Shown: piece by piece, positions 27 through 43,713 of the stretch
Layout of the letters: each line of letters opens with the position of its first letter
How positions within the stretch are numbered: position 1 is the first letter of the stretch
DNA from: an uncultured Oscillospiraceae bacterium
GTDB taxonomy: Bacteria > Bacillota > Clostridia > Oscillospirales > Acutalibacteraceae
NCBI GenBank assembly: GCA_900541565.1
Contig: UQKB01000004.1
Location: forward strand, 1 to 64,000
Direction: 5' to 3'
DNA length: 64,000 nucleotides
Notes under the pieces: model-generated
What the model was told of the DNA's origin: nothing
Seen by the model: only the letters and a program-made list of their open reading frames with translations
The model's database searches: none
Translations under genes and position numbers: made by a program

Positions 27-83
27 CTATAGATGTAATAAATTAGTATTTTTTTGTCGAATTAAAAAGGAATGGCAATAGGA

Positions 84-1703
84 ATGGAAATAGTTAATAG
101 AAAGAAATTTCATGTAAACACAGCTATTAATTCGAAAAATATACCGTTCTTATGGCAAGAGCTCGATTGTAGAACCCGGCCGATAGCCATTGCTTTTTCT
201 GCTTTTAACGAAGATTTTTTAGATTTATTTCTTTTATGGGAATCTTACAGTAAGTTTTACCTGATTGATCAGATGGGCAATATACTGGATGATACTTTTG
301 TGGATTTTTACACAAAAACACTAAAAAATATATTTGGCGTTTCTTTTAAAATTGAATATGTTCAACCGAATGATGACCTGAACGAAGAAATAATGAAAAA
401 TATTGATGATGAAAAAATAGTGGTTCTGCCAGTCGATCTGTATTTGCTGCCATATGCAGCAGATTATAAAATAAATCATCATCAGCATTATATAATTTTG
501 AAAGGATATGATTTGGAGAGGGACTTGTATTATGTTCTGGACAATATGCAATTAGAATCCGGGGCAACCAGATATGAAAATTTTAAAATGCTTTACGGTG
601 AAGTGGATAAGCTGAATTCATGCTATTGCGACCATTTTATTGGAGACGGTAAAAAATATTTTTATGTTTTGCATAAATATAAAGATTCAAAAAAGTATGG
701 CAGCAGTACTTTACAGTTGCTGAAAGAATATATATCTCGGTCAACAAGCAAATCTGAAATTATCTGTCCGGAAAAGATCTGTTACCATTCGCTAAGCCAC
801 ATGAATGAGGAAATTTTACGGTCAAGCTTAAATTTAATGAATAAACGCACTGTGTATTTCCGGGCATTGTGTTCTGTCTTAAAAAAAGCCGGTGCAGACA
901 GCACGGTATTGGCTCAATTTCAGAAAGAAATGCAATCGGTCATGGAAAAATGGCTGTTTATAAAAAATAAATTACTTTATTTAGCAGAAAGAAAAAAAGA
1001 AACGCTTGCCGGCTTTGAGCAAGTTATAGATACAGCGTTAACGGACGAATTTTTGTACGTATCCAAAATACTCGATCAAATTGACTTTTCTTGCATGCAG
1101 GACGGCAGAGTGCCCCGCCTGTTCTTTAAAAATTTTGAATCTTGTGAATATAAACTGGAAAGCGGATTTCTGTATGTGATTCATAGCAGAAAAAAACGGT
1201 ATGATACATGGCTTGTACAGGATGACGCGTGTCAGCTTTTGTTTCCAACGTCAGATTATCAGAACATAACATGCTGTGTTAATGTGGTTAATTCATCAAG
1301 TACGCTGGTTCCTTTTCATATGGGGCTTATTATAAAGCTGGACGGTCATTCGAATATTCTATTTGGAAATGAGTCAAATACTTACCTTTCAATTTATCAT
1401 CCGATCAGTCCCCAGAGCTTTTCCTTATTTAAAAAGGAGAGTTTGAATAAAAATATTTTTATAAAAATTATGTTAAACGGAAATATCTTCAATTTTTACT
1501 GGAAGAAGCAGAAACACAGCCAATGGGAATTAATTTATACATATCAGGCCGCGGCAAAAGCGGGTTATATCGGTTTATTTTCTAAAACATGGGACTTTGT
1601 TGATCATACCGCGACGTTCCAAAACTTTGAACTGGAAATGGACGATTCTATCATCACAATGGATGATGTTTACAAAATAAAGCAAGGTGTTAAACATGAA
1701 TGA
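84..1703 (+). CDS. BtrH-type N-terminal domain protein with C-terminal lectin-like domain
   Basis: Protein of about 539 residues. The N-terminal half resembles the butirosin BtrH N-terminal (papain-like, C39-related) fold: a HYIILKGYD segment near residue 140 followed by a YYVLDN strand, as in the paralogue at 17362. BtrH moves an acyl group from a carrier protein to an amine. The usual early catalytic Cys is not visible here (FHVNTAINS instead), so this copy may be inactive or structural. The last ~180 residues look like a concanavalin/DUF1349-type beta sandwich (FFKNFES start, GYIGLFSKTW near the end). Of two in-frame ATGs (72 and 84), 84 has the better-spaced GGAATGG upstream. The stop overlaps the next start by 8 bases. 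The family call rests on motif resemblance only. Confidence 0.5.
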   Translation: MEIVNRKKFHVNTAINSKNIPFLWQELDCRTRPIAIAFSAFNEDFLDLFLLWESYSKFYLIDQMGNILDDTFVDFYTKTLKNIFGVSFKIEYVQPNDDLNEEIMKNIDDEKIVVLPVDLYLLPYAADYKINHHQHYIILKGYDLERDLYYVLDNMQLESGATRYENFKMLYGEVDKLNSCYCDHFIGDGKKYFYVLHKYKDSKKYGSSTLQLLKEYISRSTSKSEIICPEKICYHSLSHMNEEILRSSLNLMNKRTVYFRALCSVLKKAGADSTVLAQFQKEMQSVMEKWLFIKNKLLYLAERKKETLAGFEQVIDTALTDEFLYVSKILDQIDFSCMQDGRVPRLFFKNFESCEYKLESGFLYVIHSRKKRYDTWLVQDDACQLLFPTSDYQNITCCVNVVNSSSTLVPFHMGLIIKLDGHSNILFGNESNTYLSIYHPISPQSFSLFKKESLNKNIFIKIMLNGNIFNFYWKKQKHSQWELIYTYQAAAKAGYIGLFSKTWDFVDHTATFQNFELEMDDSIITMDDVYKIKQGVKHE

Positions 1704-2736
1704 AAAAGTTGCTATTATCGGGTGCGGACAAATCTGCCTGGTTCACGGATATCCAATCGCTTACAGAAAAGATGTTGATTTGGTGGCTGTCTGTGACATT
1801 ATAGAAGAAAAAGCACGCAACATTGCAGACATATTGAAATGCAAAAAGTATTATACGGATTATTTGCAGATGTTTGAACAGGAAAAAATAGATATTGTAC
1901 ATATTTGTACGCCGCATTATCTGCATCCTGTCATGGCCAGGGAAGCGATGAGACGCAGGATACATGTCATGACGGAAAAGCCGATGGCTATTCATTATGA
2001 CGATGCCGTTGATTTAGTAAAGACCGCCCAAAAATTTAATGTTAAGTTCGAAGCAGTCATGCAGAACCGGTTTAATGCTGCGTCTCAGCTGGTTAAAAAA
2101 ACATTGCAATCTGGAGAATTGGGTGAAATTATTTCCGCTAAAGCGTTGCTGATGTGGAATAGAGATAAGGCGTATTACGATAAAAGCGATTGGAAGGGCA
2201 CCTGGGATAAAGAGGGCGGAGGAGTGGTAATTGATCAGGCGATTCACACCCTCGATTTACTTCGCTGGTTTGTAGATAAACCGGTCGAGACCGTAGAAGC
2301 AACTCTTTATAACAGAGTGCATCACTTCATTGAAGTAGAAGACACAGCAGATGGGATTATCGCATTCAAAGGGGGGGTGTTGGCATCGTTTTATTTCATG
2401 AATTATTACGGATATGATGCACCGATTGAAATAGAGCTCTTTTGTGAAAATGGAATTGTAAAGGTAATTGGCAGCCGCGCGGAAATATTGTTTAACGATA
2501 ATAAAAAGTACATAGCTGACATTGATGAAAAGGAAAAGGAAAAATTCGGTCCGTTTAACAAATGCTGCTGGGGAATCAGCCATATCAAACAAATTAATTC
2601 TTTCTATTCTTATATTAGAAATGAAGAAGAACAGTACATAAAAATTGAAGACGCATTGGAAACACAAAAATTGATCTGTGCCATTTATGAATCGAATAAA
2701 CAAAAAAGCAAGCTTAATTTCAATTCGTTGAAATAG
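1696..2736 (+). CDS. Gfo/Idh/MocA-family NAD(P)-dependent oxidoreductase
   Basis: 346 residues with the N-terminal Rossmann glycine motif VAIIGCGQ, the EKPMA motif that carries the family's active-site lysine, and the GGGVVIDQAIHTLDLL helix typical of Gfo/Idh dehydrogenases. These enzymes oxidise a sugar or cyclitol hydroxyl with NAD(P). The ATG at 1696 is chosen over the GTG at 1687 because AGCAAGG lies eight bases before it. It overlaps the preceding gene and is followed by a zinc-type alcohol dehydrogenase, so the two probably oxidise a sugar or cyclitol intermediate in turn. The substrate cannot be read from the sequence. This is the less likely of the two Gfo/Idh genes to be the RifL counterpart, since the other sits beside the AHBA genes. 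Confidence 0.85.
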   Translation: MNEKVAIIGCGQICLVHGYPIAYRKDVDLVAVCDIIEEKARNIADILKCKKYYTDYLQMFEQEKIDIVHICTPHYLHPVMAREAMRRRIHVMTEKPMAIHYDDAVDLVKTAQKFNVKFEAVMQNRFNAASQLVKKTLQSGELGEIISAKALLMWNRDKAYYDKSDWKGTWDKEGGGVVIDQAIHTLDLLRWFVDKPVETVEATLYNRVHHFIEVEDTADGIIAFKGGVLASFYFMNYYGYDAPIEIELFCENGIVKVIGSRAEILFNDNKKYIADIDEKEKEKFGPFNKCCWGISHIKQINSFYSYIRNEEEQYIKIEDALETQKLICAIYESNKQKSKLNFNSLK

Positions 2737-2779: not shown

Positions 2780-3736
2780 ATGAAACAACTATTTATTACA
2801 GGAATCCGGAAAAGCGAAGTTCGAGAAATACCTGATTTGGTACCAGGGAAAAATCAGGTTTTAGTGAAAGTACTATATAACGGTATTTGTATGTCGGAAT
2901 GGTATCCGTGGAATGAAGGCCGCCTGATATCGTTTGGGCATGAACCAGTTGGAATTGTATCGGCGGTTGGTGCTGACGTGACGAAGTTTAAAGTTGGCAT
3001 GCGCGTTACAGGATTAACCTCATCGGCTGGATTTGCTGAATACTGCTTAATGGATGAGAATAAAACCCTGGCCGTACCCGATAATTTGGCGAGCGAAGAT
3101 GCGATTATGGAGCCGCTTAGTTGTTTGATCAGCGCAGGCAGCAAGCTGGAAATAAAAGATCCCGATTGTCCGGTTGCTGTTGTCGGGACAGGCTACATGG
3201 GCCTGGGTATGCTTTCGCTGTTTCAGATGCAGGGAGTAAAAAAGCTGATTGCAGTGGATTGCAATGCGCAGGCATTAGAAAATGCACGCCGTTTCGGCGC
3301 CACTGAATGTTATTTTCCTGAGGAAGTTCCTGATAAATATTTGGTTACGGAATTTAATGACTCCATGTGGGAGAAAGGAATTGGTATAGTCAGTGAGTTT
3401 GCCGGTACGCAATCCGCTTTGCAGCTTGCCGGGGATATGACGGCTGTACACGGCCTGTTAGGAATTGGCGGCTGGCATCAGGGCGGAATGCGTTCGCTGG
3501 ATATCTGCAGGTGGGGCTGGAAAGCAATGACCGTAATCCATACGCATGAAAGACGTATTGCATATCAAATGGAATGCGGCAGGCAGGCGCTTGATTTGTT
3601 ATCAAATGGTAAATGGAGGTTTAAAGGTGTGGCTAACCACATTTACACGTTAGAAGAATTTGACCGTGCTTTTCAAAATACAGTAATAAAAAAGGATAAC
3701 AGTATTAAAACATTAATTCGCTGCGCAGATTATTAA
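2780..3736 (+). CDS. Medium-chain (zinc-type) alcohol dehydrogenase
   Basis: 318 residues of the MDR superfamily. The catalytic zinc region is visible as GICMSEWYPW with the cysteine near residue 38 and the conserved GHEPVG near residue 56. The nucleotide-binding segment VAVVGTGYMGLGMLSLF has the expected glycines. The four-cysteine structural zinc loop is absent, and the protein is shorter than typical 340-350 residue members. ATG is preceded by GGAG in the 43-base gap after the Gfo/Idh gene, so the pair is probably cotranscribed. The likely role is oxidation or reduction of a sugar-derived hydroxyl/keto group during assembly of the cluster product. Confidence 0.8.
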   Translation: MKQLFITGIRKSEVREIPDLVPGKNQVLVKVLYNGICMSEWYPWNEGRLISFGHEPVGIVSAVGADVTKFKVGMRVTGLTSSAGFAEYCLMDENKTLAVPDNLASEDAIMEPLSCLISAGSKLEIKDPDCPVAVVGTGYMGLGMLSLFQMQGVKKLIAVDCNAQALENARRFGATECYFPEEVPDKYLVTEFNDSMWEKGIGIVSEFAGTQSALQLAGDMTAVHGLLGIGGWHQGGMRSLDICRWGWKAMTVIHTHERRIAYQMECGRQALDLLSNGKWRFKGVANHIYTLEEFDRAFQNTVIKKDNSIKTLIRCADY

Positions 3737-3773: not shown

Positions 3774-3803
3774 CCGCCGCATGAAAATGTTTTCATGCGG
3801 CGG
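3774..3803. repeat. Perfect 14-bp inverted repeat (RNA hairpin) between cluster genes
   Basis: CCGCCGCATGAAAA, then TG, then the exact reverse complement TTTTCATGCGGCGG. It could fold into a GC-rich 10-bp stem with an AT-rich loop, or extrude as a longer perfect palindrome. No T-run follows on the plus strand (GGCCGGAATTT), so it is not a standard terminator. It lies in the widest gap of this part of the operon, 59 bases before the radical SAM start at 3862. Confidence 0.75.
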
Positions 3804-3861
3804 GGCCGGAATTTACCTGACGAAACATATCCTGTTTATGGAAAAGGAAGTGCATAAAATT

Positions 3862-5439
3862 ATGCTAAAAGTAGGTGTGCTGCACGCCCCGAAGCCTTAT
3901 GTGCTGAAATGTCCTCCTCAGGGACTAATGAGCATTGCCGCTTATTTAAGGGAAAATAAAATTATATTTGATATCCTTGATGCTAATATCCATTTTGTTG
4001 ATTGCAAAAAAATCGAAAAAGATTCCTATCAAAAACTTTTGAACGATAAATTATATATCAATAATTTCAATATGGCAAAACAGGACTTTCCGGAACAGCA
4101 GTTAACTGAATATTTTTTAGAGCATCAATTCGAGATCGTTTTAGTCGATTGTAATTTTACCGGTACGGCAAACTATTCTTTTAGAACGATCCAACTGCTA
4201 CGGCGCGTTCTGCCGAATTGTATTATTATTACCGGCGGCATCCATGCGACAATCTTCGACAAGGAAATACTGGACAAATACCCGGTAAATATTGTTATTA
4301 AAGGCGAAGGGGAAGAAATTGCGTTAAAAATTATTCGGGGCTATATCAATCATGACATTGATTTGGCCGACATTGCCGGTATTTCATATAAAGAAAACGG
4401 CAGGGTTATATCAAATGCAGGATCCGGCCTGGTGGAAGATATCAACACACTGCCGCCTGTATACAATGTATATGAAGATTTTGAAATTGAATTGTACCGC
4501 GATTATGTTAAGGCGGTAAAAGGACCTTTTTGGGGAGATCAGGACCCTACAGGCGTGCTTCTGAGCAGCCGGGGATGTGTCGGCCGCTGCACATTTTGTA
4601 ACGGCAGGGTAATCGACCAGGGCCGCTACAGGAGCTCGTCGGTAGAAAATATAATTAAGCAGATAGATTATTTATATACCCGTTATAAACCAAAAAAATT
4701 TGGAATTTATGACGCTATGTTTGGGGGGAATTTATCTTCTTATAAAGCTGTCTGCGACTATTTCAGACAACGAAAGGTTCCGTGGGGATTTGAAACGCGA
4801 ATAGATATTATGACGGAAGAAAAGCTGGATTATTTAAAAAATACAAATTGTAAATATATTTTATATGGGCTGGAAAGCGTTTCGCTCGACACCTTAATTT
4901 ACAACCATAAGGTTTCAAAGGCGACGCGGTCTGATTATGAGGTGAAGGCCGCGAAGCTGTTTAAGAAAACAAGCCGTATACATATTTTATGTGTTATTTC
5001 CATCCTCTATGGATTACCCGGAGATGATGCAAACATTTTTAATAAAACCATCCGTTTTTTTAAAGAGCACAAACTGAACAATGACAGATATATTACCGGT
5101 TTGTTCTACAGCCCCATTATGTATCCGGGGACCGATATTTGGAACAATGCAAAAAAAGAGGATAGGTGCTATAACTGGGATAAGTTTTTCGTCAATAATG
5201 AAAATATTATTGAGGAAGGCGAAATTATTTATAAAAATCCCAACATTGATTTGTCGGAGTTGAATTATTATGTAAAGAATTCTTTCGAGCTGATTCAGGA
5301 GGATAAAACAAAATTCAAGCTGATAAATAAACTGTTATCTAAGCAAAAAAAAATTAGAAATCTATGGGCAGAGGGGAAAGGTGGATTAAGTTCGCTGTTT
5401 TATCTGAAATGGTTTCTGATGAGTATTTTATATAGTTGA
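3862..5439 (+). CDS. Cobalamin-binding-domain radical SAM protein
   Basis: 525 residues. The N-terminus has the B12-binding-type layout: PPQGLMSIAAYLRE, then VLVDCNFTG, then IITGGIHAT and KGEGEE. The radical SAM core starts at LLSSRGCVGRCTFC (CX3CX2C cluster motif). Members perform radical C-methylation, ring contraction or other unactivated C-H chemistry with a [4Fe-4S] cluster, SAM and often cobalamin. Start: the ATG at 3862 follows AAGGAAG at 3844-3850, whereas upstream in-frame ATGs at 3781 and 3838 have no ribosome binding site and the first lies inside the palindrome. One of four B12-type radical SAM genes here; the substrate is unknown. Confidence 0.85.
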   Translation: MLKVGVLHAPKPYVLKCPPQGLMSIAAYLRENKIIFDILDANIHFVDCKKIEKDSYQKLLNDKLYINNFNMAKQDFPEQQLTEYFLEHQFEIVLVDCNFTGTANYSFRTIQLLRRVLPNCIIITGGIHATIFDKEILDKYPVNIVIKGEGEEIALKIIRGYINHDIDLADIAGISYKENGRVISNAGSGLVEDINTLPPVYNVYEDFEIELYRDYVKAVKGPFWGDQDPTGVLLSSRGCVGRCTFCNGRVIDQGRYRSSSVENIIKQIDYLYTRYKPKKFGIYDAMFGGNLSSYKAVCDYFRQRKVPWGFETRIDIMTEEKLDYLKNTNCKYILYGLESVSLDTLIYNHKVSKATRSDYEVKAAKLFKKTSRIHILCVISILYGLPGDDANIFNKTIRFFKEHKLNNDRYITGLFYSPIMYPGTDIWNNAKKEDRCYNWDKFFVNNENIIEEGEIIYKNPNIDLSELNYYVKNSFELIQEDKTKFKLINKLLSKQKKIRNLWAEGKGGLSSLFYLKWFLMSILYS

Positions 5440-5453
5440 ACAGGAGAAATAAT

Positions 5454-6206
5454 GTGGAGTACTATCAATTTTTCATATACATATTGATAGGCTTTATTGC
5501 CCAAATGGTAGATGGAGCACTGGGTATGGCATATGGCGTATGTTCGACAACCTTCCTTACCGCCGTAGGGGTACCAATCAGAATAGCGAGCGCCAGTGTA
5601 CATACGGCGGAGGTATTCACAACATTGGTCTCCGGAATTTCACACTGGAAATGTAAGAATATTGATTTTTCCCTGTTTAAGAGCCTGATTATTCCCGGGA
5701 CTATCGGAGGGGGTTTAGGTGCTTATGTACTTGTTAACGTCTCGGGAGAGGCGCTGACCCCGTTTATTGCAATCTATCTGATTATCATAGGATTTGTTGT
5801 AATATACCGTGCGCTGAAAAAGTTTAAAAAAAAATTTTTTAATTATAAAAAAGTATGCTCTATCGGCCTTATAGGCGGCTTTTGTGATGCCGTCGGCGGA
5901 GGCGGATGGGGGCCAATTGTTACTTCTACGATGCTTGCATCAGGCTATAAGACACGCTTTGTTATAGGGACCGTCAATACGGCAGAGTTTTTTGTTACCA
6001 TCGTGCAGTCCTTTACATTTGCTGTTTTTATGGGAATCGGAGATTATTGGCAGGTTATTCTGGGACTTGCTGTTGGAGGAGCACTTGCCGCTCCTCTGGC
6101 GGCGCTGATCTGTAAAAAACTGGCCGATAAAAAACTGACATTGATCGTTGGAATTTTTATCGTAGTATTAAACGCCTGGAATATATTGAAGTATTTCGCA
6201 GGGTAG
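5454..6206 (+). CDS. TSUP/TauE-SafE family membrane transporter
   Basis: 250 residues, strongly hydrophobic, with about seven to eight membrane segments and the two glycine-rich repeats expected in TauE/SafE permeases (MVDGALGMAYGV early, CDAVGGGGWGPI in the second half). TSUP proteins move sulfite, sulfate, sulfonates or other small anions across the membrane. A GTG at 5454 with CAGGAG seven bases upstream is the best start; the TTG at 5436 has no binding site. It lies directly before the APS kinase gene, so import of sulfate for the cluster's own PAPS supply is the simplest role. Export of sulfite or another anion is possible. Confidence 0.8.
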   Translation: MEYYQFFIYILIGFIAQMVDGALGMAYGVCSTTFLTAVGVPIRIASASVHTAEVFTTLVSGISHWKCKNIDFSLFKSLIIPGTIGGGLGAYVLVNVSGEALTPFIAIYLIIIGFVVIYRALKKFKKKFFNYKKVCSIGLIGGFCDAVGGGGWGPIVTSTMLASGYKTRFVIGTVNTAEFFVTIVQSFTFAVFMGIGDYWQVILGLAVGGALAAPLAALICKKLADKKLTLIVGIFIVVLNAWNILKYFAG

Positions 6207-6236: not shown

Positions 6237-6836
6237 ATGAAACATAATTTTACACAGGCTGGGGCGAATTCGGCAGGGTTTGTTATCTGGCTGACAGGAC
6301 TGTCAGGGGCTGGAAAAACAACAATAGCCAACAGGGTATCTGATTTATTACAAATGAAGGGGTATGACGTACGTTGCCTGGATGGGGACATTGTCCGGAA
6401 AACTTTCAGCGCCGGCCTTGGTTTTTCTCAGGTGGACCGCATGGAGAATGTCCGCAGAATCTCCGAGGCTGCGTCTTCATTAAGTGAAAACGGCAGTATT
6501 GTCATTGTAAGCGTTATCTCGCCGCAAGCCGAGATGAGAGAATGGGCAAAAAAAAGGATTGGCGATGAACGTTTTATAGAGGTTTTCGTAAAAGCGCAGA
6601 TTAAAACATGTATACAAAGGGATCCCAAGGGATTGTATAAGAAGGCACTTGCCGGAGAAATAGAAAATTTTACAGGAATTTCAGCAGTATATGAGGAGCC
6701 GCTGTGTGCGGATATCGTATTAAACACAGAGACACAGACTTTACCGGAGTGTGCGGAAAAGCTACTTGAATTTTTAAATCGAGCCAACTTCCTGACACAC
6801 GCAATTTATCCAGATAAAAACAATAAGGTTTTTTAG
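6237..6836 (+). CDS. cysC: Adenylylsulfate (APS) kinase
   Basis: 199 residues, normal for a stand-alone CysC. The Walker A loop GLSGAGKTT is at residues 21-29, followed by LDGDIVRKTF, then LGFSQVDRMENVRR, and later DPKGLYKKALAGEI and FTGISAVYEEP, all diagnostic of APS kinase. The enzyme phosphorylates adenylyl sulfate to PAPS, the donor for sulfotransferases. Together with the CysD and CysN genes at 27387 and 28221 the cluster encodes the full sulfate-to-PAPS path, feeding the sulfotransferase at 13789. No reduction gene (cysH) is present, which argues for sulfation and against cysteine synthesis. Confidence 0.95.
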   Translation: MKHNFTQAGANSAGFVIWLTGLSGAGKTTIANRVSDLLQMKGYDVRCLDGDIVRKTFSAGLGFSQVDRMENVRRISEAASSLSENGSIVIVSVISPQAEMREWAKKRIGDERFIEVFVKAQIKTCIQRDPKGLYKKALAGEIENFTGISAVYEEPLCADIVLNTETQTLPECAEKLLEFLNRANFLTHAIYPDKNNKVF

Positions 6837-10836: not shown

Positions 10837-11005
10837 TCTGCGGAATAAGCTGATAAACGTTGCGGTTTTAAGCTATCAGGCACTTTGCAGTGTCCTGCTT
10901 TCTCAGGTGCAGTTTTTACACAATTATTTAAATGCTGCGTTACTGTTACCGGGCTTTATATCCCTTTTATGCCTTGCAGCGCAGCGGAAAGGATTGGTCA
11001 TAGGT

Positions 11006-11305: not shown

Positions 11306-11325
11306 TAGATAGCATAGGGTGTAAA

Positions 11326-13745: not shown

Positions 13746-13788
13746 GTGTAGGTTGTATTTCTCGATTTTGAATAAAAAGGAGACAGCA

Positions 13789-18889: not shown

Positions 18890-18894
18890 ATACA

Positions 18895-29453: not shown

Positions 29454-29470
29454 AACAAAAGAGGTGTTAC

Positions 29471-34843: not shown

Positions 34844-34848
34844 GCATT

Positions 34849-36447: not shown

Positions 36448-36462
36448 GTGTGGTGGAGGATT

Positions 36463-37092: not shown

Positions 37093-37105
37093 ATGGGGTG
37101 CTGAT

Positions 37106-38167
37106 ATGAAATTTGGCCTGATTGGCTGCGGATGGATAGCAGAAAAAGCATATATTCCGGCTTTCCAAAGAATAGAAAATGCGGCTATTGAGGCAGTCTT
37201 TGATCCCGATAAGATGCAGCTGCGGAATATACAAAGCAAGTATCATATTCCCTTTGCGTTTGATTCTGTTGAAGCATTGCTTGATTGCCCGATTGATGCT
37301 GTAATCATAGCCGCCCCCAATTATATACATACCCGCTATTCCAATATGGCGCTGGAAGCTGGAAAGCATGTATTATGTGAAAAGCCCGTAGCGCTTACGG
37401 CCGCAGATATTCAGGGAACTGTGGATCTGGCAAAAAAGAAAAAACTGATTTTTTTGCCTGGCTTTGTTTCAAGATTTCGCAAAGACGTACTTGTGTTTGA
37501 TAAAATGGCCGCTCAGGTCGGGAAAATCAGGTGTATTTATGCACAGTGGGTACGTTCCGGCGGAGTGCCCAGGCCGGGAACCTGGATCACGAACCGTAAG
37601 CTGGCCGGCGGAGGCGTACTGATTGACATTGGTACCCATCTGCTGGATATTTGTCTGATGCATGTAAAAGACAAGAAGATTGACTTTATGCGGGCCTGCA
37701 TGGAAAAAGCGTCTTGTCATACTGTAAAGGAAAATGCGGCATGGTGTGAACGGGAAACGGCGCGCTGCTATGATATTGATGTGGAGACAGAATCGTCCGG
37801 TGAAATACGTTTTGCCGACGGACTGCTGCTGCGTTATAACTTGAACTGGGCGATGCCCGCTGGAAAGGACAAAACTTATATTGAAATAACCGGCAGCAGA
37901 GGAACCGCTTCATTTGACAGCTTGTTCGGCTTTAGCAGTAATTGCGGGGAAAAGGACATTCTGATCAGTCTGGAAAAAGGGCAAACACACCAGATTACCT
38001 TTCCTGTGAAAAACACATTTTCGTTTGATGCATTTGTTTCTCTTGTTGAATACTTTATTCACCTGATTCATGGAGAGCAACCTGATGTACTGTGTTCTTC
38101 TGATGCGCTTTATGTTGTAGAGCTCATTGAAAAATTATATCAATCAATACCGGCTGGAGGGAATTAG
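37106..38167 (+). CDS. Gfo/Idh oxidoreductase, RifL-like (UDP-glucose 3-oxidation in AHBA route)
   Basis: 353 residues: FGLIGCGWIAEKAY Rossmann start, CEKPVAL with the family lysine, and RSGGVPRPGTWITN followed by AGGGVLIDIGTHLLD, which resembles the AHBA-cluster oxidoreductases as I recall them. In the rifamycin scheme RifL with RifK forms UDP-kanosamine from UDP-glucose through a 3-keto intermediate. The next four genes are counterparts of RifN, RifJ, RifK and RifM, which supports this. The start at 37106 follows GGGTG; the earlier in-frame ATG at 37085 overlaps the previous gene. Confidence 0.75.
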   Translation: MKFGLIGCGWIAEKAYIPAFQRIENAAIEAVFDPDKMQLRNIQSKYHIPFAFDSVEALLDCPIDAVIIAAPNYIHTRYSNMALEAGKHVLCEKPVALTAADIQGTVDLAKKKKLIFLPGFVSRFRKDVLVFDKMAAQVGKIRCIYAQWVRSGGVPRPGTWITNRKLAGGGVLIDIGTHLLDICLMHVKDKKIDFMRACMEKASCHTVKENAAWCERETARCYDIDVETESSGEIRFADGLLLRYNLNWAMPAGKDKTYIEITGSRGTASFDSLFGFSSNCGEKDILISLEKGQTHQITFPVKNTFSFDAFVSLVEYFIHLIHGEQPDVLCSSDALYVVELIEKLYQSIPAGGN

Positions 38168-39073
38168 ATGCATTATATTGCATTGGACTTAGGAGGCAGC
38201 AACATAAGATATGCAGTTTTCAAAGAACGTATGGTTACCCCTTCAGAGACAGGAAAACGACCTTTTGTACATTGCGGCGATCCTCGTCAGGAAATAGAAC
38301 AAAACATCTGTAGTCTTATTGAAAAATATACAGACGGGCTTAAGGGAATTGGCCTTTCTTTGGCAGCTAATGTTGACCGGTATGACGGAACCGTGTCGGC
38401 CTGGCCTAATAATCCGTGCTGGGAAGGGTATCAACCGGGACTGCATTTAGAAAAGACATACCAGGTACCCGTGAAAATAGAAGATGATGCAAACTGCGGC
38501 GCATTGGGCGAATATTACATGTTAAATCACCCGCCGAAAAATATGATTTATCTTTCTGTTGGTACAGGATTAGGGTGCGGCTTGATTTTAAACAGCAGGC
38601 TTTTCATAGGAGAAAATGGGTTTGCCGGAGAATTGGGTCATGTAGATACCGGCACAAACGATCTTTGCACCTGCGGACAAAGAGGATGCCTGCAAGCACA
38701 CCTTTCCGGACCGGCCATAGTGAATGATTTTTGCACTGCCTGCGAATATGAAGAAGCCGGTACCTTGGAGCAGGTCGTAGCACTATGTGAAGACGGCAAC
38801 AAAACAGCTCTGCTTTGTATGAAAAAGGCGGTTGAATATGCTTGTACTGCAATTTTCAACTTAGTAATGTGTCTGGATGTACCTTACTTTGTAATCGGAG
38901 GCGGAGCCAGCCAGATCGGAGAAATCTTTATCAGGCAAATAAGCCGCGGCGTCAATGACAAGTTGCGGCGTTTCAAACGCGAAGCCGTAATATTAGCTGC
39001 TAAACTGGGAGAATACAGCGGCGTTTATGGGGCGTACTTTTTATTTACAAAAAAATTAAAACAGAATGGATGA
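38168..39073 (+). CDS. ROK-family sugar kinase, RifN-like (kanosamine kinase candidate)
   Basis: 301 residues: ALDLGGSNIRYAVF phosphate loop, EDDANCGALGE, GTGLGCGLILN, and the ROK zinc motif GHVDTGTNDLCTCGQRGC (one histidine and three cysteines). ROK enzymes phosphorylate hexoses at C6. RifN phosphorylates kanosamine (3-amino-3-deoxyglucose), and this gene stands exactly between the RifL-like and dehydroquinase genes, so kanosamine is the likely substrate. Plain glucokinase activity is the alternative. It starts one base after the upstream stop. Confidence 0.8.
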   Translation: MHYIALDLGGSNIRYAVFKERMVTPSETGKRPFVHCGDPRQEIEQNICSLIEKYTDGLKGIGLSLAANVDRYDGTVSAWPNNPCWEGYQPGLHLEKTYQVPVKIEDDANCGALGEYYMLNHPPKNMIYLSVGTGLGCGLILNSRLFIGENGFAGELGHVDTGTNDLCTCGQRGCLQAHLSGPAIVNDFCTACEYEEAGTLEQVVALCEDGNKTALLCMKKAVEYACTAIFNLVMCLDVPYFVIGGGASQIGEIFIRQISRGVNDKLRRFKREAVILAAKLGEYSGVYGAYFLFTKKLKQNG

Positions 39074-39077
39074 TGAT

Positions 39078-39548
39078 ATGAAACAGACGGTTGCGGTAAT
39101 TAACGGACCAAATATAAATATGCTTGGTTCCCGCGAAATTTCTGTTTATGGAGAGGAACGCTGGGCAGACATTGAAAAATCTGTAAGCGCGTATGCTGAC
39201 CGGCTAAATTTGGAAGTGATTTTTTATCAATCAAACCATGAGGGAGCTATTGTGGATTTCATCCAGCAAAACGCAGAGTTGCTTGCCGGCATTATAATCA
39301 ATCCTGCGGCTTTTACCAAAACGGGTTTTTCTGTTCTTGATGCGTTGACTGCCAGAAGGACTCCTTATATTGAAGTGCATTTAACAAATTTAATGCAAAG
39401 GGGCGGCTGGCATTCAGAAAGTATTTTTACGGAACATGCAATTGGATTCATCATGGGGTTTCGAGGTTTTGTTTATCAAATGGGAATTCAGGCAATGAAT
39501 GGCTATTTAGAAGAAACAATGCTTAAAAACAGGACGGGAATCCTTTGA
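39078..39548 (+). CDS. aroQ: Type II 3-dehydroquinate dehydratase, RifJ-like (aminodehydroquinate dehydratase)
   Basis: 156 residues, usual size for the type II enzyme: VINGPNINMLGSRE, tyrosine in SVYGEE, FYQSNHEGAIVDFI, IINPAAFTKT, and the catalytic histidine in IEVHLTN. The loop after this is unusual (LMQRGGWHSES instead of the HXREXFRHXS form), and GFIMGFRGFVYQ ends the fold. A lone dehydroquinase beside an AHBA-synthase-like gene is the signature of the aminoshikimate route, where it makes aminodehydroshikimate. The changed loop fits an amino substrate but could also be drift. Confidence 0.88.
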   Translation: MKQTVAVINGPNINMLGSREISVYGEERWADIEKSVSAYADRLNLEVIFYQSNHEGAIVDFIQQNAELLAGIIINPAAFTKTGFSVLDALTARRTPYIEVHLTNLMQRGGWHSESIFTEHAIGFIMGFRGFVYQMGIQAMNGYLEETMLKNRTGIL

Positions 39549-39605
39549 AGAATTTATCGGTATATGAAATTGCAGGCAGTAAAAAAGCAGATAACTTTTT
39601 ATTTT

Positions 39606-39659
39606 AAGGAAAGGAGTATGTAATCATTTCAGCCTGCCGGCGGATGATTATAGCATCTT
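39606..39659 (+). promoter_or_regulatory. Strong ribosome binding site with start-stop codon and hairpin before the AHBA synthase gene
   Basis: AAGGAAAGGAG (39606-39616) is followed by ATG TAA (39618-39623), a one-codon reading frame. AATCAT (39622-39627) and ATGATT (39644-39649) can pair around an internal GCC/GGC, giving a small stem-loop. The real gene start at 39660 has no good binding site of its own. The arrangement may ration translation of the downstream enzyme, or may reflect a small insertion between site and gene. Confidence 0.45.
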
Positions 39660-40871
39660 ATGGAACAATTAGCAATCAACGGTGGTACACCGAGTAAAAC
39701 GAAGCCGTTTCCCAAATGGCCCTATTCAGATAATAACGAACGCGTCTTAATCGATGAAGTATTATCGAGCGGGAATTGGTGGCGTATGACAGGCGATAAA
39801 TTAGTTACCTTTGAAGAGGAATTTGCAAAAGCACATTCGGTAGATTACTGTTTGGGGGTGACAAACGGAACTCATGCCATAGAGCTTGCATTGACAGCGC
39901 TTGGTATTAAACGCGGCGATGAGGTCATTGTTCCGGCGGTAACATTCATATCTACCGCTTCAGCTGTTTTATATGTAAATGCAACTCCGGTGCTCGTCGA
40001 CGTTGATCCGGTAACTTTTTGTATGATGCCCGAGGCCTTTGAACGTGCAATTACTCCAAAAACCAAAGCGGTTATCCCGGTACATATGGCGGGGCATGCA
40101 TGCGATATGGAACAAATTTGCTCCATAGCAAAGAAATATGGAATTGCGGTCATTGAAGATGCCGCCCATGGGCACGGCGGCCAGTGCAATCATAGAATGA
40201 TCGGCTCCTATGGGGATATGTCTATTTTTAGTTTTCAGAACGGAAAAATTATGACTTGCGGTGAAGGGGGCGCTGTGATTACCAGGCATAAACACCTGTA
40301 TGAGCAGGCGTATCTTATCCATGGTGTTGGAAGGCCTCGGGGTGATCGTGTATATGAGCATCGTGTTTTGGGCTCCAATTACCGTATGAATGAATTTTCG
40401 GCAGCAATACTGCTTGCCCAGCTTCACCGGCTGCCTAAAATGAATGCAAAGCGTGAAGAAAATGCAAGGCTTCTTGATTTGCTTCTTGCCGATGTTGAAG
40501 GGATTATCCCACAGGGGCGAAAAGAATATGCCACAAGAGTTACCCATTATATGTACATGTTTTATTATGATCAGGCGCATTTCAACGGTCTGTCCCGTTC
40601 TGATTTTATAGAATGTCTGATCGCAGAAGGAATTCCGGCGTTTATTTGTTTTCCTGTTTTGTCGGATACTGCATTTTTTCGCCAAAACGATTTTCATAGC
40701 CGGATAGACGCAAATGAGCTGAAACAGTTAAACGATATTTCAAACGCAAGAAAAATAGCATCGGAAGTAATCTGGATCCCTCATTTCACCTTGTTAGGGG
40801 ACCGGCAGGATGTACAAGAGATTGTCGCGGCAATAAAAAAGATAAAACATGCTGTATGCCGCAGGATGTGA
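39660..40871 (+). CDS. AHBA-synthase-like DegT/DnrJ aminotransferase (RifK-like)
   Basis: 403 residues, PLP-dependent. It matches the AHBA synthase pattern segment by segment: WPYSDNNER, SGNWWRMTGDKL, AVTNGTH-type GVTNGTHAIELAL, IPVHMAGHACDME, EDAAHGHGG, the PLP lysine in SFQNGKIMTCGEGG, HGVGRPRGDRVYEH and GSNYRMNEFSAA. RifK both aminates 3-keto-UDP-glucose (with RifL) and aromatises aminodehydroshikimate to AHBA. The GNWWRM and FQNGKXMTXGEGGA signatures separate it from ordinary sugar aminotransferases. ATG 39660 gives the typical family N-terminus even though its own ribosome binding site is poor. Confidence 0.85.
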   Translation: MEQLAINGGTPSKTKPFPKWPYSDNNERVLIDEVLSSGNWWRMTGDKLVTFEEEFAKAHSVDYCLGVTNGTHAIELALTALGIKRGDEVIVPAVTFISTASAVLYVNATPVLVDVDPVTFCMMPEAFERAITPKTKAVIPVHMAGHACDMEQICSIAKKYGIAVIEDAAHGHGGQCNHRMIGSYGDMSIFSFQNGKIMTCGEGGAVITRHKHLYEQAYLIHGVGRPRGDRVYEHRVLGSNYRMNEFSAAILLAQLHRLPKMNAKREENARLLDLLLADVEGIIPQGRKEYATRVTHYMYMFYYDQAHFNGLSRSDFIECLIAEGIPAFICFPVLSDTAFFRQNDFHSRIDANELKQLNDISNARKIASEVIWIPHFTLLGDRQDVQEIVAAIKKIKHAVCRRM

Positions 40872-40884
40872 GGAATGAAAGACA

Positions 40885-41538
40885 ATGACTCAGCTGATTA
40901 TTTTTGATTTCGACGGCGTTATCATTAATTCTCATCAGGTCCAGAGAAAAGCTCTGAAGGAAGCGTATTTTTCTGTGGGCGGAACAGGCAGTCCGCCCTA
41001 TAATGAATTTTTCAGACATAGTGGAGACAGCCTAAAAAATATTTTTAAAAAAATAAAATTGCCAGTTTCCATGGTCAAAAAATATGAAGAGGTAAGCCGT
41101 GAAAACAAGCATTTGATTCAATTACACGCAGGGATGACAGAAGTATTGCAGAGCTGTAAAGACACAGGCTATCAATGTGCGTTATGTACGGGAAAAAGCC
41201 GTGAGCGGACAATGGAAATCCTTCAGATGCTATCTTTGTTGCAGTTTTTTGACGCGGTGATTTGCTCCGATGATATTGCCAATCCAAAGCCTCATCCGGA
41301 AAGCGTTTTTGTTCTTTTGAACGCTTTATCGGTAAAAAAAGAAAATGCAATTTTTGTGGGAGATGGAATAAACGATGTGCTGTGCGCGCGCAACGCTGGT
41401 GTGCGGTCTGTCGCGGTTACATGGGGAGACGTCCCCAAAAACGATCTTGTAAAAACAAAGCCGGACAGGCTTGTTGATTCAGCGGCTGAATTATTGGCAT
41501 GCTTAATAGGGAAAAGAAGCCTTTTGGTTTCCTGTTAA
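40885..41538 (+). CDS. HAD-family phosphatase, RifM-like
   Basis: 217 residues of the phosphoglycolate-phosphatase/CbbY type: IIFDFDGVIIN holds the nucleophile aspartate, ALCTGKSRE the second motif, and IFVGDGINDVLCARNAG the metal motif. RifM in the rifamycin cluster is a phosphatase of this class that acts in the release of kanosamine. Directly after the AHBA-synthase-like gene, this completes the set L-N-J-K-M. A shorter cap than PGP enzymes is typical for small-sugar substrates. Its 3' end lies in a hairpin. Confidence 0.8.
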   Translation: MTQLIIFDFDGVIINSHQVQRKALKEAYFSVGGTGSPPYNEFFRHSGDSLKNIFKKIKLPVSMVKKYEEVSRENKHLIQLHAGMTEVLQSCKDTGYQCALCTGKSRERTMEILQMLSLLQFFDAVICSDDIANPKPHPESVFVLLNALSVKKENAIFVGDGINDVLCARNAGVRSVAVTWGDVPKNDLVKTKPDRLVDSAAELLACLIGKRSLLVSC

Positions 41539-41599: not shown

Positions 41600-42091
41600 A
41601 TGAATAGGAAACGTGTATTTTTAGGAGGCCCGATTCAAAATATTTCAAATTCAGATCGTCAAGTGAATTATAAAGATAAAACCTTAATTCTAAAAATTGT
41701 TCATTCGCTGCAAAACTCTGAAATAGATGTTTTCTCAGCTCATATGGAAGAGAAGTTCGGTTCGGAAATACCCAACATCCAGGAAATATGCAGAAGGGAT
41801 TATAAGTGGATGAAGGAATGTGATGTTTTTTGTTTATTGATGTTACATAACGACAACGGCTTTATCCGCAGCGACGGAGCTTGCATTGAGCTGGGATGGG
41901 CTTTTTCCATGGGGAAGCCTATCATCCTTATCGCCGAGCCCTTATATCTTCAAAATGCGTCCGCTTTACTACAGGGACTGATATTTGAAAGCGTTGCAGA
42001 AATTGTGCCAATCGATGATTTGGAAAATAATGTGACGTTATTGGCTGATTCCATCAAAAGAATAAATACGAGCTGCTCTGCCGCGTATTAA
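41600..42091 (+). CDS. Nucleoside 2-deoxyribosyltransferase-like protein
   Basis: 163 residues, near the usual length. VFLGGPIQN at the start, RDYKWMKECDVFCLLM with the aspartate strand, and GACIELGWAFSMGKPIILI with the catalytic-type glutamate agree with the family, which cleaves or exchanges N-glycosidic bonds of nucleosides or nucleotides. AAGGAGG lies six bases before the ATG. In this cluster it may free a base or sugar from a nucleotide precursor. It could equally belong to the wider family of small NMP N-glycosidases. Confidence 0.65.
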   Translation: MNRKRVFLGGPIQNISNSDRQVNYKDKTLILKIVHSLQNSEIDVFSAHMEEKFGSEIPNIQEICRRDYKWMKECDVFCLLMLHNDNGFIRSDGACIELGWAFSMGKPIILIAEPLYLQNASALLQGLIFESVAEIVPIDDLENNVTLLADSIKRINTSCSAAY

Positions 42092-42115
42092 TTGTGGAGT
42101 AAAATTGGAGGAAAA

Positions 42116-42973
42116 ATGAAAGCAAAAACTTCTTTTTTTAACTGGACGCTGCCACACCCTATTATAATTCCATCAGGCCCGTTAACGAATAACATTGCGC
42201 TTATCAAAAAAGCTTTTGAGCAGGGGGCTTGTGCAGCCGTAACAAAAACAATTAGCTGTGAAAGAAAATCTTATCAGGGAATCAGGCATTTCCCTGATAA
42301 GATTACTTTTAATCAGGAAGGGTATTCCTCCAGGTCTCCGTCAGAATGGGCGGCAGACTGGCCTGCGTTACAGGGGCAACCTGTCATAGCAAATATTCAT
42401 GGAAATTCTCCTTCTGCATTTGCCGGATTGGCGGAGTATTTGGTGCGGTCAGGGGCCGAAATACTGGAGCTTGGAGTTTCGTGCCCTACTTTTGGGGAGG
42501 AGCCGGCCTGCTATCATCTGGCGGAGCTGGAAAAAATCTGTTCAAGCGTCAGGAAAGCCGTGCCAGTTCCGGTTATCGCCAAAGTGGTAGTCAGTATGTC
42601 GAAACGGCTCAACCGGGATATGGCAAAATGTATTCTTGATACGGGGCTGGACGGGATTACGGTGAGCGATTCGTTGCCGGCAGCCTGCCTGTCATCAGGC
42701 GATAAAAAATGTTACGGTGGTTTGACCGGTCCTTTTTTAAAGCCGTTGGTTTTGCGCGCATTGTATGACATTCAAGATATAAATTTGTGCAAAATTGCAG
42801 TCGGAGGAGTCTTCTCCAGTCAGGATGCAGAGGAGTATCTGCAATGTGGAGCTACATTGGTAGGAGTCTGTAGCTGTATATTGCAGGGAGGATGGAAAAA
42901 CTTACATCAAATAATAGAACCATATATTTATTTTGAAGAGGAGGTGGACCGCAATTGCGTTACGAAGAGCTGA
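42116..42973 (+). CDS. Dihydroorotate dehydrogenase-family flavoprotein
   Basis: 285 residues, TIM-barrel layout of class 1 DHODs: IIIPSGPLTNN, AAVTKTIS, QPVIANIHGN, ELGVSCPTFGE, VIAKVV, GITVSDS, and the phosphate-binding IAVGGVFSSQDAEEYL. The family oxidises dihydropyrimidines or related rings with FMN. The Asn of the usual NCP/NXSCP motif is changed to VSCP, so the substrate may differ. ATG 42116 after GGAGG is preferred to the unsupported start at 42092. It overlaps the creatininase-like gene by 19 bases. Confidence 0.75.
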   Translation: MKAKTSFFNWTLPHPIIIPSGPLTNNIALIKKAFEQGACAAVTKTISCERKSYQGIRHFPDKITFNQEGYSSRSPSEWAADWPALQGQPVIANIHGNSPSAFAGLAEYLVRSGAEILELGVSCPTFGEEPACYHLAELEKICSSVRKAVPVPVIAKVVVSMSKRLNRDMAKCILDTGLDGITVSDSLPAACLSSGDKKCYGGLTGPFLKPLVLRALYDIQDINLCKIAVGGVFSSQDAEEYLQCGATLVGVCSCILQGGWKNLHQIIEPYIYFEEEVDRNCVTKS

Positions 42974-43713
42974 CATGGACTGAACTTTCAAAATGTGCGA
43001 AGGAAAAAATTTTGTTCCTTCCTGTGGGCTCTGTTGAGCAGCATGGCTATAATCTGCCTACCGGTGTTGATTGTTATTTAGCACAATCCATAGCGCAACA
43101 GGTCAGCGATCTGCTGAACGGCGTTCTGGCCCCAACCATATCTTATGGAGCCAGAAGCCAGCCGAACAGCGGCGGCGGCGACCAATTCAGCGGAACTGTA
43201 TATATTAAGGGAAGTACACTGATTGCATATTATACAGACATCATAACCGGTTATTTACGGGCCGGGTTTAAACAGATCATTATTATAAATGCTCATTGGG
43301 AAAACGAAGCGTTTCTCAATGAAGCGATTGAAATTATAAAAGGAATGCAGCTGCTTGATGGCATCAAAGTGATGGCGTTAAGCTGGTGGAGCATTCTGGA
43401 CGACCAGGAGATAAGACAGATCATACCGGAATTTGCCGGATGGAAGTTTGAACATGCTGGTCGGGCCGAAACGGCATTAATGATGTATTACCAGAAAACG
43501 CTGCTTCCAGGCGTTATTAGCTTGGAAAGCAGGGACTTAACTGTGAATCCTGATATATATACATTTCCTATCCCGCTCGAAATTTCGCAAAACGGTGGAT
43601 CATTAAGTTCATGTCAAGGGGTTACCGACGAAATGGGTGCACAGCTGGCGCAACTGACCGTGAATAAAATTGCCGAGGCGGTAAGGGGGTTTCTACAGAT
43701 AAAAACAAATTGA
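42955..43713 (+). CDS. Creatininase-family amidohydrolase
   Basis: 252 residues with metal ligands in PVGSVEQHGYNLPTGVD (Glu, His, Asp), an INAHWEN motif in place of NGHGGN, and EHAGRAETALMM (Glu, His). Members hydrolyse cyclic or linear amides (creatininase, FAPy deformylase, MftE peptidase). A TTG start at 42955 with GAGGTGG before it. As the last gene of the long plus-strand run, with a DHOD-like and a deoxyribosyltransferase-like gene, it could open or close a nitrogen heterocycle in the product. The actual substrate is unknown. Confidence 0.78.
   Translation: MRYEELTWTELSKCAKEKILFLPVGSVEQHGYNLPTGVDCYLAQSIAQQVSDLLNGVLAPTISYGARSQPNSGGGDQFSGTVYIKGSTLIAYYTDIITGYLRAGFKQIIIINAHWENEAFLNEAIEIIKGMQLLDGIKVMALSWWSILDDQEIRQIIPEFAGWKFEHAGRAETALMMYYQKTLLPGVISLESRDLTVNPDIYTFPIPLEISQNGGSLSSCQGVTDEMGAQLAQLTVNKIAEAVRGFLQIKTN

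Follow-up and report, generated by a model that had tools for sequence, protein, structure and literature searches.

Mitomycin, a cancer drug, is known from soil Streptomyces. In the parts available of the published accounts, its pathway joins AHBA, MitE, MmcB, MitB, MitC, MitD and MmcS (PMC8621148; PMC9570651), with MitF and MitH also among the steps (PMC8621148; PMC9570651; PMC8788734). The pactamycin genes, as far as the accessible portion of PMC13402214 describes them, comprise PKS-type genes (ptmI/K/O/Q/S), a glycosyltransferase gene (ptmJ), radical SAM genes (ptmC/H/L/M) and sugar-modifying genes (ptmA/B/G/N). For azinomycin, the available part of PMC9570651 describes sulfation as creating the leaving group for aziridine closure; PMC10764440 merely cites sulfate-elimination work. 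Among the papers listed by a literature search, mostly without subscription journals, none described an AHBA or mitomycin-type cluster in Clostridia, and the part available of a 2021 aminoshikimate review (PMC8788734) does not mention Clostridi, Firmicutes or Paenibacillus.

The stretch of DNA analysed here, referred to as the window, comprises 64,000 nucleotides from an uncultured Oscillospiraceae bacterium (contig UQKB01000004.1). We interpret it as carrying a mitomycin-type biosynthetic cluster (an AHBA-glucosamine pathway) in a Clostridia host, with integral sulfation and an extra KS/carrier/BtrH acyl module, a reading to which we assign a probability of roughly 75%. Gene families, homology to MitD and gene content common to relatives were observed directly. 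Chemistry of the type with which mitomycin starts probably occurs far outside the known hosts. The first-pass annotation had held that these functions are not together in any named pathway; this does not stand, as mitomycin unites the AHBA, ligase, carrier, GT2, PIG-L, radical SAM and carbamoyltransferase functions (PMC8621148; PMC9570651) and pactamycin is similar (PMC13402214), in the parts available of those sources. Similar gene sets are found in Lachnospiraceae, Ruminiclostridium, Pseudomonas, a gammaproteobacterium and actinobacteria. Two of these relatives recur below: G006, an uncultured Lachnospiraceae (SRR19792994_bin.95, contig CAMNSZ010000004.1), and G018, Pseudomonas protegens FD6; others are cited by number.

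Selected from a mechanical ORF list, the cluster is a run of 45 ORFs (the broken radical SAM gene entered as two), all on the + strand, at 72-43713 (~43 kb); about 40 same-strand genes had been claimed. The median intergenic gap is 3.5 bp (n=44) and only two gaps exceed 100 bp (138 and 111). The left end of the contig is a library artefact because an adapter occupies bases 8-26, which we take to be the Nextera mosaic end. GC content is 41% in the cluster and 49.5% in the adjoining housekeeping DNA, and decayed Tn916-type remnants sit at the junction of the two. One 96% homolog, P0121, lies on a 128,598-bp contig. The features are as follows, with the evidence in brackets.

1..26 (mosaic end 8-26), no strand, transposase mosaic-end adapter, artefactual contig end (sequence)
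72..1703, +, BtrH_N-type acyltransferase 1, putatively for carrier-protein acyl transfer (PF14399, 45.3 bits)
1687..2736, +, GFO/IDH/MocA oxidoreductase 1 (profile)
2780..3736, +, zinc alcohol dehydrogenase-like (profile)
3781..5439, +, B12-binding radical SAM 1, BchE-like (profiles; CxxxCxxC at residue 266)
5436..6206, +, TauE/SafE-family transporter (PF01925)
6237..6836, +, CysC APS kinase (PF01583; TIGR00455 219.7 over cut-off 138.7)
6923..7666, +, SDR reductase, MitF candidate (profile; SDRs also in G013, 29%, and G018, 31%)
7677..8474, +, alpha/beta hydrolase (profile; 33% in G006 cluster)
8505..10121, +, B12-binding radical SAM 2 (profiles)
10093..10836, +, Dph6-like ATP-pyrophosphatase, putatively amide-forming (PF01902; SGGKD)
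10742..11305, +, DUF3795 protein a (profile)
11302..12315, +, CLF-like partner of KS (PF00109, 23.4 bits; no Cys at motif position)
12454..13745, +, B12 radical SAM 3, PhpK-like, broken (TIGR04479, 355 bits on C part, cut-off 600)
13753..14493, +, putative PAPS sulfotransferase, motif-level (PRTGS and RK..L motifs)
14535..14828, +, DUF3795 protein b (profile)
14862..16238, +, PDE1, alkaline-phosphatase superfamily, without the N-terminal DG and SDH motif of PDE2/3 (PF01663)
16189..17325, +, BpsA-like aminopropyltransferase (PF01861, 108 bits; PDB 6j27, E 1.2e-15; GDDE motif)
17362..18378, +, BtrH_N/C39-like acyltransferase 2 (BtrH_N 23.6 bits, under its cut-off of 29.7)
18342..18632, +, carrier protein ACP1 (PF00550)
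18629..18889, +, carrier protein ACP2, may fill the MmcB role (PF00550; best matches 30-43% in relatives)
18886..19131, +, carrier protein ACP3 (PF00550)
19156..20115, +, GT2 glycosyltransferase, candidate MitB equivalent for GlcNAc transfer (profile; 40% in G006 cluster)
20115..21329, +, ketosynthase (KS) with Cys-His-His motifs C161/H294/H332 (PF00109/PF02801)
21349..22317, +, carbamoyltransferase N-terminal subunit, CarbN (PF02543)
22341..24071, +, ABC exporter half 1 (profile)
24089..25831, +, ABC exporter half 2 (profile)
25886..27367, +, PDE2, type I phosphodiesterase/NPP-like (PF01663, 130 bits)
27387..28187, +, CysD, ATP sulfurylase small subunit (NF003587 341 over 195; TIGR02039 264, below 396.6)
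28221..29453, +, CysN, ATP sulfurylase GTPase subunit (TIGR02034 339.2 over cut-off 336.1)
29471..30751, +, PDE3, type I phosphodiesterase/NPP-like (profile)
30735..32126, +, AMP-forming acyl ligase, may fill the MitE role (PF00501; 41% in G006 cluster)
32107..33027, +, SAM methyltransferase (profile)
33021..33782, +, PIG-L de-N-acetylase, candidate MitC equivalent (PF02585; HPDD motif)
33773..34843, +, MitD-family radical SAM (131/354 aligned positions identical to P0230; tree)
34702..36447, +, B12 radical SAM 4, BchE-like, true start probably internal (profile)
36448..37092, +, carbamoyltransferase C-terminal subunit, CarbC (PF16861, 246 bits; 69% in G006)
37085..38167, +, RifL-like oxidoreductase (profiles)
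38168..39073, +, RifN-like ROK (kanosamine) kinase (profiles)
39066..39548, +, RifJ-like type II (amino)dehydroquinase, DHQase II (profiles)
39660..40871, +, AHBA synthase, RifK/MitA-like, DegT (profile, homologs, PDB)
40885..41538, +, RifM-like HAD phosphatase (TIGR01454 is the best model, at 159.9 bits under its cut-off of 246.65)
41600..43713, +, three downstream genes: nucleoside deoxyribosyltransferase-like, DHODH-like and creatininase, of uncertain pathway membership (profiles)
43996..44250, +, Tn916-type excisionase ORF, then tyrosine-recombinase C-terminal fragments in two frames (PF09035; frames read)

The gene inventory of the first-pass annotation was confirmed, and its interpretation was borne out in part: a single hybrid cluster, with AHBA, amino sugar and carbamate in its logic, lies in a host of Clostridia type. 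Profiles recovered its carrier-protein assembly (three PP-binding proteins and an AMP ligase), GT2 plus deacetylase (PIG-L), carbamoylation, by genes split into N (21349) and C (36448) parts, and dual ABC export (two exporter genes). The KS/CLF-like pair is there too, the KS with C161/H294/H332 and its partner without Cys, an absence judged from a motif scan without alignment. B12 domains and reading frames confirmed four B12-type radical SAM genes, one of them broken; a fifth radical SAM lacks the B12 domain. The broken gene has its B12 part (12454-12903) in one frame and its radical SAM part (12717-13745) in another. A phosphonate reading of this PhpK-like gene was dropped, the gene being broken and no PEP mutase being among the families found.

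AHBA formation, likewise claimed, is represented by RifK-, RifL-, RifM-, RifN- and RifJ-like genes, that is by five of the seven Rif enzymes, since RifG and RifH are missing from the profile families found in the window. For RifG this is not unprecedented: in G006 and G013 the only DHQ synthase gene sits away from the cluster. In four of ten genomes (G001, G004, G005 and G016), however, a DHQ synthase gene is no more than 6 kb from that for AHBA synthase, as judged from contig number for G001 and G005. The best PDB match of the AHBA synthase-like DegT protein is RifK (1b9h, 314 bits; next enzyme 239). The view that AHBA synthase is mainly an actinomycete enzyme finds no support, given homologs in Hydrogeniiclostridium mannosilyticum (74% identity) and Lachnoclostridium phytofermentans (71%). 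Among plasmids it matched 11 records, all from Streptomyces and below 60% identity.

The radical SAM protein at 33773-34843 aligns over residues 5-354 of 356 with P0230, a protein cluster named MitD (37%, E 8e-92). In a tree it groups within an 18-row clade of Clostridia sequences (95/93), separate from the clade of 16 rows to which MitD belongs, and this topology makes it a MitD homolog and not an ortholog. Among 18 genomes searched, all with AHBA synthase, the MitD-family enzyme was found in nine and not found in nine; in eight of the nine having both it is encoded on the AHBA synthase contig, at most 26 kb away (from contig number and coordinates for G014, G015 and G017). Of the 82 MitD-family matches listed, 23 are fused to a HAD domain (AHBA-type phosphatase) with 42-49% identity to the RifM-like HAD of the window. 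For MitD-family matches whose longest contig is at least 15 kb, at least 18 of 49 share the exact value with an AHBA synthase match, a pairing based on the 120 AHBA synthase matches listed of 1797.

For the other mitomycin roles the equivalents were assigned by family, MitD being the only named mitomycin enzyme compared as a protein: an AMP ligase, a PP-binding protein, a GT2 and a PIG-L protein stand for MitE, MmcB, MitB and MitC, and PF02543 and PF16861, on two separate genes, for MmcS. ACP2 has best matches of 30-43% in G004, G005, G006, G013, G018 and G219, and B12 radical SAM 4 matches at 57% in G006 and 34-38% in G005, G013, G018 and G219. PIG-L scores over cut-off inside the cluster in eight of ten relatives. 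G004 and G013 lack a carbamoyltransferase, and that of G014, G017 and G018 is encoded away from the cluster. No match to the three downstream genes (41600-43713) was seen within the stretches examined of seven relatives.

A full PAPS supply with sulfotransferase had been proposed; CysD, CysN and CysC hold, and the sulfotransferase does not reach the same standing. The protein at 13753-14493 carries the motifs, exceeds the cut-off of no curated profile (Pfam Sulfotransfer_3, PF13469, 15.2 bits, cut-off 27, E 0.026), has a single-sequence predicted fold with pLDDT 36, and resembles the sulfotransferases of relatives not above chance by BLAST. An in-cluster sulfotransferase over cut-off occurs in four of nine relatives (G013, G014, G017 and G018).

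We infer each reaction, and the product, from this gene content. AHBA would come from the RifL/K/N/J/M-type enzymes, the roles of RifH and RifG probably falling to the DAHP and DHQ synthases of the host. AHBA may then be loaded onto ACP2 by the AMP ligase; GlcNAc would be added by GT2 and the acetyl group taken off by the PIG-L enzyme, and the MitD-family radical SAM would form the C-C bond that creates the core from AHBA and glucosamine. Candidates for the finishing steps are a reductase, a methyltransferase, the two-subunit carbamoyltransferase and B12 radical SAM 4, and for export the ABC pair. PAPS from CysD/N/C could serve integral sulfation, as a retained sulfate or as a temporary leaving group for ring closure, and the KS/CLF-like, ACP1/ACP3 and BtrH genes may supply a variant-specific acyl part. 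Weighing against the mitomycin-type reading are the missing RifG and RifH, a sulfotransferase at motif level, the presence of a KS, the lack of a recognised quinone oxidase or resistance gene, the left end cut at an adapter, the tree position outside the MitD clade, the uneven carbamoyltransferase distribution among relatives and the nine genomes with AHBA synthase in which no MitD-family enzyme was found. A bolder version, which we consider tentative and rather unlikely in full, sees an anaerobic mitomycin branch making an O2-free carbamoylated AHBA-glucosamine alkaloid: a PAPS-sulfated hydroxyl would leave as the aziridine closes, sulfation and B12 radical SAMs would replace the oxidative steps of Streptomyces, and the KS/BtrH genes would add an acyl arm. 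We know of no mitosane with such an arm.

A pactamycin-type route is the foremost alternative, although improbable in our view. Here a KS would add a C2 unit to an ACP-loaded aryl starter, and glycosylation, deacetylation and radical SAM cyclisation would give an aminocyclopentitol. Its parts list (KS, ACP, ligase, GT and several radical SAMs) is present at family level only, the window KS has its catalytic motifs, several B12 radical SAMs are encoded, and pactamycin also has PKS-type, GT, radical SAM and sugar-modifying genes (PMC13402214, part available). In the accessible part of PMC10698177, the cispentacin KS pair AmcF-AmcG offers a precedent for one single C2 elongation; the window KS scores 218 bits against the AmcF equivalog, under the cut-off of 325, and is not assigned to AmcF-AmcG. 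Against this route, G006 retains the shared core without a KS match and the window has a five-gene AHBA block, whereas the 3-aminobenzoate starter of pactamycin arises by another route than AHBA. A 3-aminobenzoate synthase and a 6-MSA synthase are the marks of pactamycin; no iterative type I PKS is among the families found in the window.

It is less probable again that two pathways, one operon for AHBA-glucosamine and another, distinct from it, with the KS/BtrH/ACP genes, are chance neighbours in a mobile region. KS, CLF-like, BtrH, ACP1 and ACP3 indeed have no match in the G006 cluster, but ACP1 and ACP3 flank ACP2, the KS gene lies between GT2 and CarbN and the CLF-like gene between DUF3795a and PDE1, all within 45 same-strand ORFs at a median gap of 3.5 bp. 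Two unrelated operons are also argued against because the 22 of 45 ORFs shared with G006 are interleaved over 7677-41538 (34 kb); since these include ATP sulfurylase and the split carbamoyltransferase, the whole looks like one pathway. Another sulfated AHBA conjugate (ansamycin-like or a simple amide) with no tie to mitosane chemistry, which the first-pass annotation had left open, is the least credible reading, for although Firmicutes AHBA synthase loci are diverse and the Paenibacillus and Brevibacillus genomes searched have AHBA genes without a MitD-family enzyme, here MitD-family radical SAM, GT2 and PIG-L co-occur and no modular PKS is among the families found in the window.

If the mitomycin-type reading is true, such pathways form a family across Clostridia, Pseudomonas, other Proteobacteria and actinobacteria and are not an actinomycete peculiarity. 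The core-forming steps (MitD, ring closure), which are poorly understood, would gain model enzymes from anaerobes, and one would have to ask whether anaerobes, including Lachnospiraceae, produce mitomycin-like compounds. AHBA synthase, a MitD-family enzyme and sulfate activation together provide a handle for genome mining. A sample of the host family gave 0 matches in 398, which merely hints at patchiness because the sample had no positive control; a class sample gave 3 in 391, two already known.

Among the systems compared, G006 shares CysD (67%), CarbC (69%), radical SAM 4 (57%), PDE2 (51%) and a two-gene carbamoyltransferase; it differs in having no match for KS/CLF/BtrH, CysC or any sulfotransferase family, and in carrying an ABC importer of the sulfate/molybdate type, a fusion of HAD and radical SAM, and two AHBA synthase-like genes. 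The AHBA/MitD-family cluster of G018 shares PDE1, PDE2, radical SAM 4, MitD-family radical SAM, ligase, ACP, HAD, DHQase II, CysC, sulfotransferase, BpsA-like, PIG-L, GT2, RifL, AHBA synthase and SDR, and differs by lacking an in-cluster carbamoyltransferase and by having an AdoMet decarboxylase and a large ORF that matches an AMP ligase. The actinobacterial locus L073 matches GT2 (29%) and the ligase (27%); its 13.5-kb contig showed no match to ACP or PIG-L. With azinomycin the likeness, sulfate activation beside the sulfate-elimination aziridine route, is in chemical idea only. Pactamycin, in the part of its description available, resembles the window in KS, ACP and ligase-type PKS genes, GT, several radical SAMs and sugar-modifying enzymes, the AHBA block standing in place of the 3-aminobenzoate route. 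From the mitomycin C cluster (mit/mmc) of Streptomyces lavendulae/S. caespitosus the window differs in its Clostridia host, ATP sulfurylase and APS kinase, three PDE-type proteins, BpsA-like gene, split carbamoyltransferase, and KS/CLF/BtrH genes and extra ACPs, a KS not being among the mitomycin steps in the available parts of PMC8621148, PMC9570651 and PMC8788734. It also lacks RifG and RifH, and no oxygen-dependent oxidase, and no mitomycin quinone oxidase or resistance protein of the types familiar to us, was recognised among its families. Common to both, at family level, are the AHBA genes, an acyl ligase, a discrete ACP, glycosyltransferase, deacetylase, MitD-family radical SAM (37%), carbamoyltransferase and methyltransferase.

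We consider the cluster at 72-43713, judging from its sequence, to be a variant of a mitomycin-type pathway of which both the host range and the sulfur arm are unexpected. It includes 45 ORFs on a single (+) strand, separated by a median gap of 3.5 bp (n = 44 gaps), and has a GC content of 0.409 compared to 0.495 in the remainder of the window. The features which define its limits and core are:

8-26, within the record start (1-26): library adapter
12454-13745, + strand: third, PhpK-like B12 radical SAM gene, open frame split in two
37085-41538, + strand: AHBA block of RifL-, RifN-, RifJ-, RifK- and RifM-like genes
43714-44400, at the GC boundary: Tn916-type excisionase (xis) ORF and tyrosine-recombinase C-terminal pieces in two frames

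The left end of the contig (1-26) is an artefact of an adapter kept in the record (at 8-26, presumably the Nextera mosaic end), and since the window begins with this adapter, the contig and probably the cluster are cut on the left. On the other side, the contents of 43714-44400, among them a short snippet which we take from its motif to be 4-alpha-glucanotransferase-like, are remnants of a decayed mobile element. The cluster is most simply thought to have reached its host horizontally with this element, which has since decayed. Families outside the cluster are of the housekeeping type (IlvD, EF-G, 2-hydroxyacid dehydrogenase, class V aminotransferase, dihydroorotase-like amidohydrolase, OMP decarboxylase, NIF3, TrmK, NFACT and EPSP synthase). 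The class V aminotransferase has a top match of 84% among 391 Clostridia genomes, and the host is assigned no more narrowly than to this class.

Gene families were assigned with Pfam and NCBIfam profiles. These bear out most of the list in the first-pass annotation, except that RifG and RifH are missing from the families found in the window and that the putative sulfotransferase is a motif-level assignment only. RifK is the top solved-structure match of the DegT protein, 75 bits ahead of the next. Of the 10 genomes searched, 4 have a DHQ synthase close to their AHBA synthase. Sulfate activation is represented by ATP sulfurylase (CysD, CysN) and APS kinase (CysC). Four of the five radical SAM genes carry a B12 domain and, as had been noted, one of these is broken: the third, whose pieces were profile-searched separately, is spread over two frames, which may be either a sequencing error or true decay. 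Among the families of the window we recognised none of the known mitomycin resistance or quinone-forming proteins; this, like the missing RifG and RifH, counts against the mitomycin-type reading. Deoxyribosyltransferase-like, DHODH-like and creatininase genes follow in series at 41600-43713 and could provide a pyrimidine-to-beta-alanine-type side route.

We infer all steps of the following scheme from gene content. AHBA would be formed by cluster enzymes, with host enzymes covering two steps, and loaded onto the carrier protein ACP2; GlcNAc would then be transferred and deacetylated, a C-C bond made by radical chemistry and the product reduced, with carbamoylation, methylation, sulfation and export as later steps. 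The sulfate might be kept in the product or be displaced by a neighbouring amine to give an aziridine; sulfate elimination giving an aziridine is described for the azinomycin building block in a section of PMC9570651. The BpsA-like protein matches aminopropyltransferases. An AdoMet decarboxylase gene (6215064-6215612, locus L088) lies next to the Pseudomonas protegens FD6 (G018) cluster, which also has a BpsA-like gene, and it is plausible that this enzyme supplies the aminopropyl donor, decarboxylated SAM, there. A pactamycin-type pathway remains a rival to the mitomycin-type reading because there is a KS in the window.

An uncultured Lachnospiraceae (G006) has homologs of 22 of the 45 window ORFs in a single compact cluster, among them CysD (67% identity), CysN (44%), the carbamoyltransferase subunits CarbC (69%) and CarbN (52%), the fourth B12 radical SAM (57%), three phosphodiesterase (PDE)-type proteins, PDE2 (51%), PDE3 (46%) and PDE1 (43%), AHBA synthase (60%), the MitD-family enzyme (43%), ligase (41%), GT2 (40%) and PIG-L (38%). 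That the halves of the window cluster are separate, unrelated operons is argued against by the interleaving of these shared genes, over 7677-41538, with the window-specific KS, CLF-like, BtrH2, ACP1 and ACP3 genes, which speaks for the single cluster first proposed. Neither the seven genes at the left end nor the last three (41600-43713) are the best match of any G006 ORF, and their place in the pathway is less sure; CysC and SDR, both in the left-hand group, have counterparts in the clusters of G018 and of a gammaproteobacterium (G013). The carbamoyltransferase is encoded by two genes in the window (14 kb apart) and by one full-length ORF in three further relatives (G005, G016, G219); since G006 also has two genes, which are adjacent, the split appears to be a two-subunit form that has been conserved, not damage.

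Sulfate activation genes occur in four of the eight compared clusters (window, G006, G013, G018), and no CysC, CysD or CysN matches turned up in the stretches compared from G004, G005, G016 and G219. PDE-type proteins (14862-30751 in the window) are found in the same four clusters, and that of G006 (L086) contains a sulfate- or molybdate-type importer made up of SBP_bac_11, permease and ATPase components. In-cluster sulfotransferases exceed the cut-off in G013, G014, G017 and G018, and none does so in G004, G005, G006, G016 or G219. They share a PRSGTS/PRTGS-type motif with the window protein, whose BLAST similarity to those of G013 and G018 is not beyond chance. The G006 genome has no sulfotransferase-family match despite its ATP sulfurylase and three PDEs; a PDE could act in sulfate transfer or APS/PAPS turnover. 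PDE1 (14862-16238), with homologs in G006, G013 and G018, has neither the SDH motif nor the N-terminal DG that PDE2 and PDE3 both retain, and may be an alkaline-phosphatase-superfamily protein that is altered or non-catalytic. PDE2/PDE3 homologs also adjoin DHQase II and HAD genes in the Streptomyces AHBA loci L050, L053 and L069, which represent a further type of AHBA cluster that has PDE-family proteins.

The starting lead for the pathway comparison was the radical SAM gene without a B12 domain (33773-34843), directly 3' of the PIG-L gene. Its family is encoded in 9 of the 18 genomes with AHBA synthase loci that were searched, from a set of 19 without L012, and absent from the other 9. In eight of the nine, this gene and AHBA synthase share a contig and are at most 26 kb apart (in three cases judged by coordinates and contig number); Ruminiclostridium papyrosolvens, the ninth, has the two on different contigs. 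Among the matches listed from the protein database, 23 of 82 MitD-family proteins are fused to a HAD phosphatase matching the RifM-like HAD of the window at 42-49% identity. The longest contig of 18 of the 49 MitD-family matches in which it is at least 15 kb is exactly as long as that of an AHBA synthase match, for which 120 of 1797 matches were listed.

The homologous enzyme of a Streptomyces niphimycinicus AHBA locus (L073) led to a protein cluster (P0230, 72% to that query) which bears, among other names, the UniRef name MitD, Streptomyces lavendulae. The window enzyme is 37% identical to it over 354 positions (E 8e-92), and an alignment of 12 sequences has 51 invariant columns. In a 43-row tree the window enzyme falls in a Clostridia clade apart from the MitD clade, which argues against a closer claim than MitD homology. 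In the parts of PMC8621148 and PMC9570651 that deal with mitomycin, MitE loads AHBA onto MmcB, MitB then adds GlcNAc, MitC is responsible for deacetylation and MitF/MitH for reduction, MitD makes the C-C bond and MmcS carbamoylates. Each of these roles has a family member in the window, MitD being the only one compared by sequence. The gene inventory and one-strand arrangement reported initially stand, and the accompanying claim that no named pathway joins these functions does not, since the published mitomycin core assembly has the same roles.
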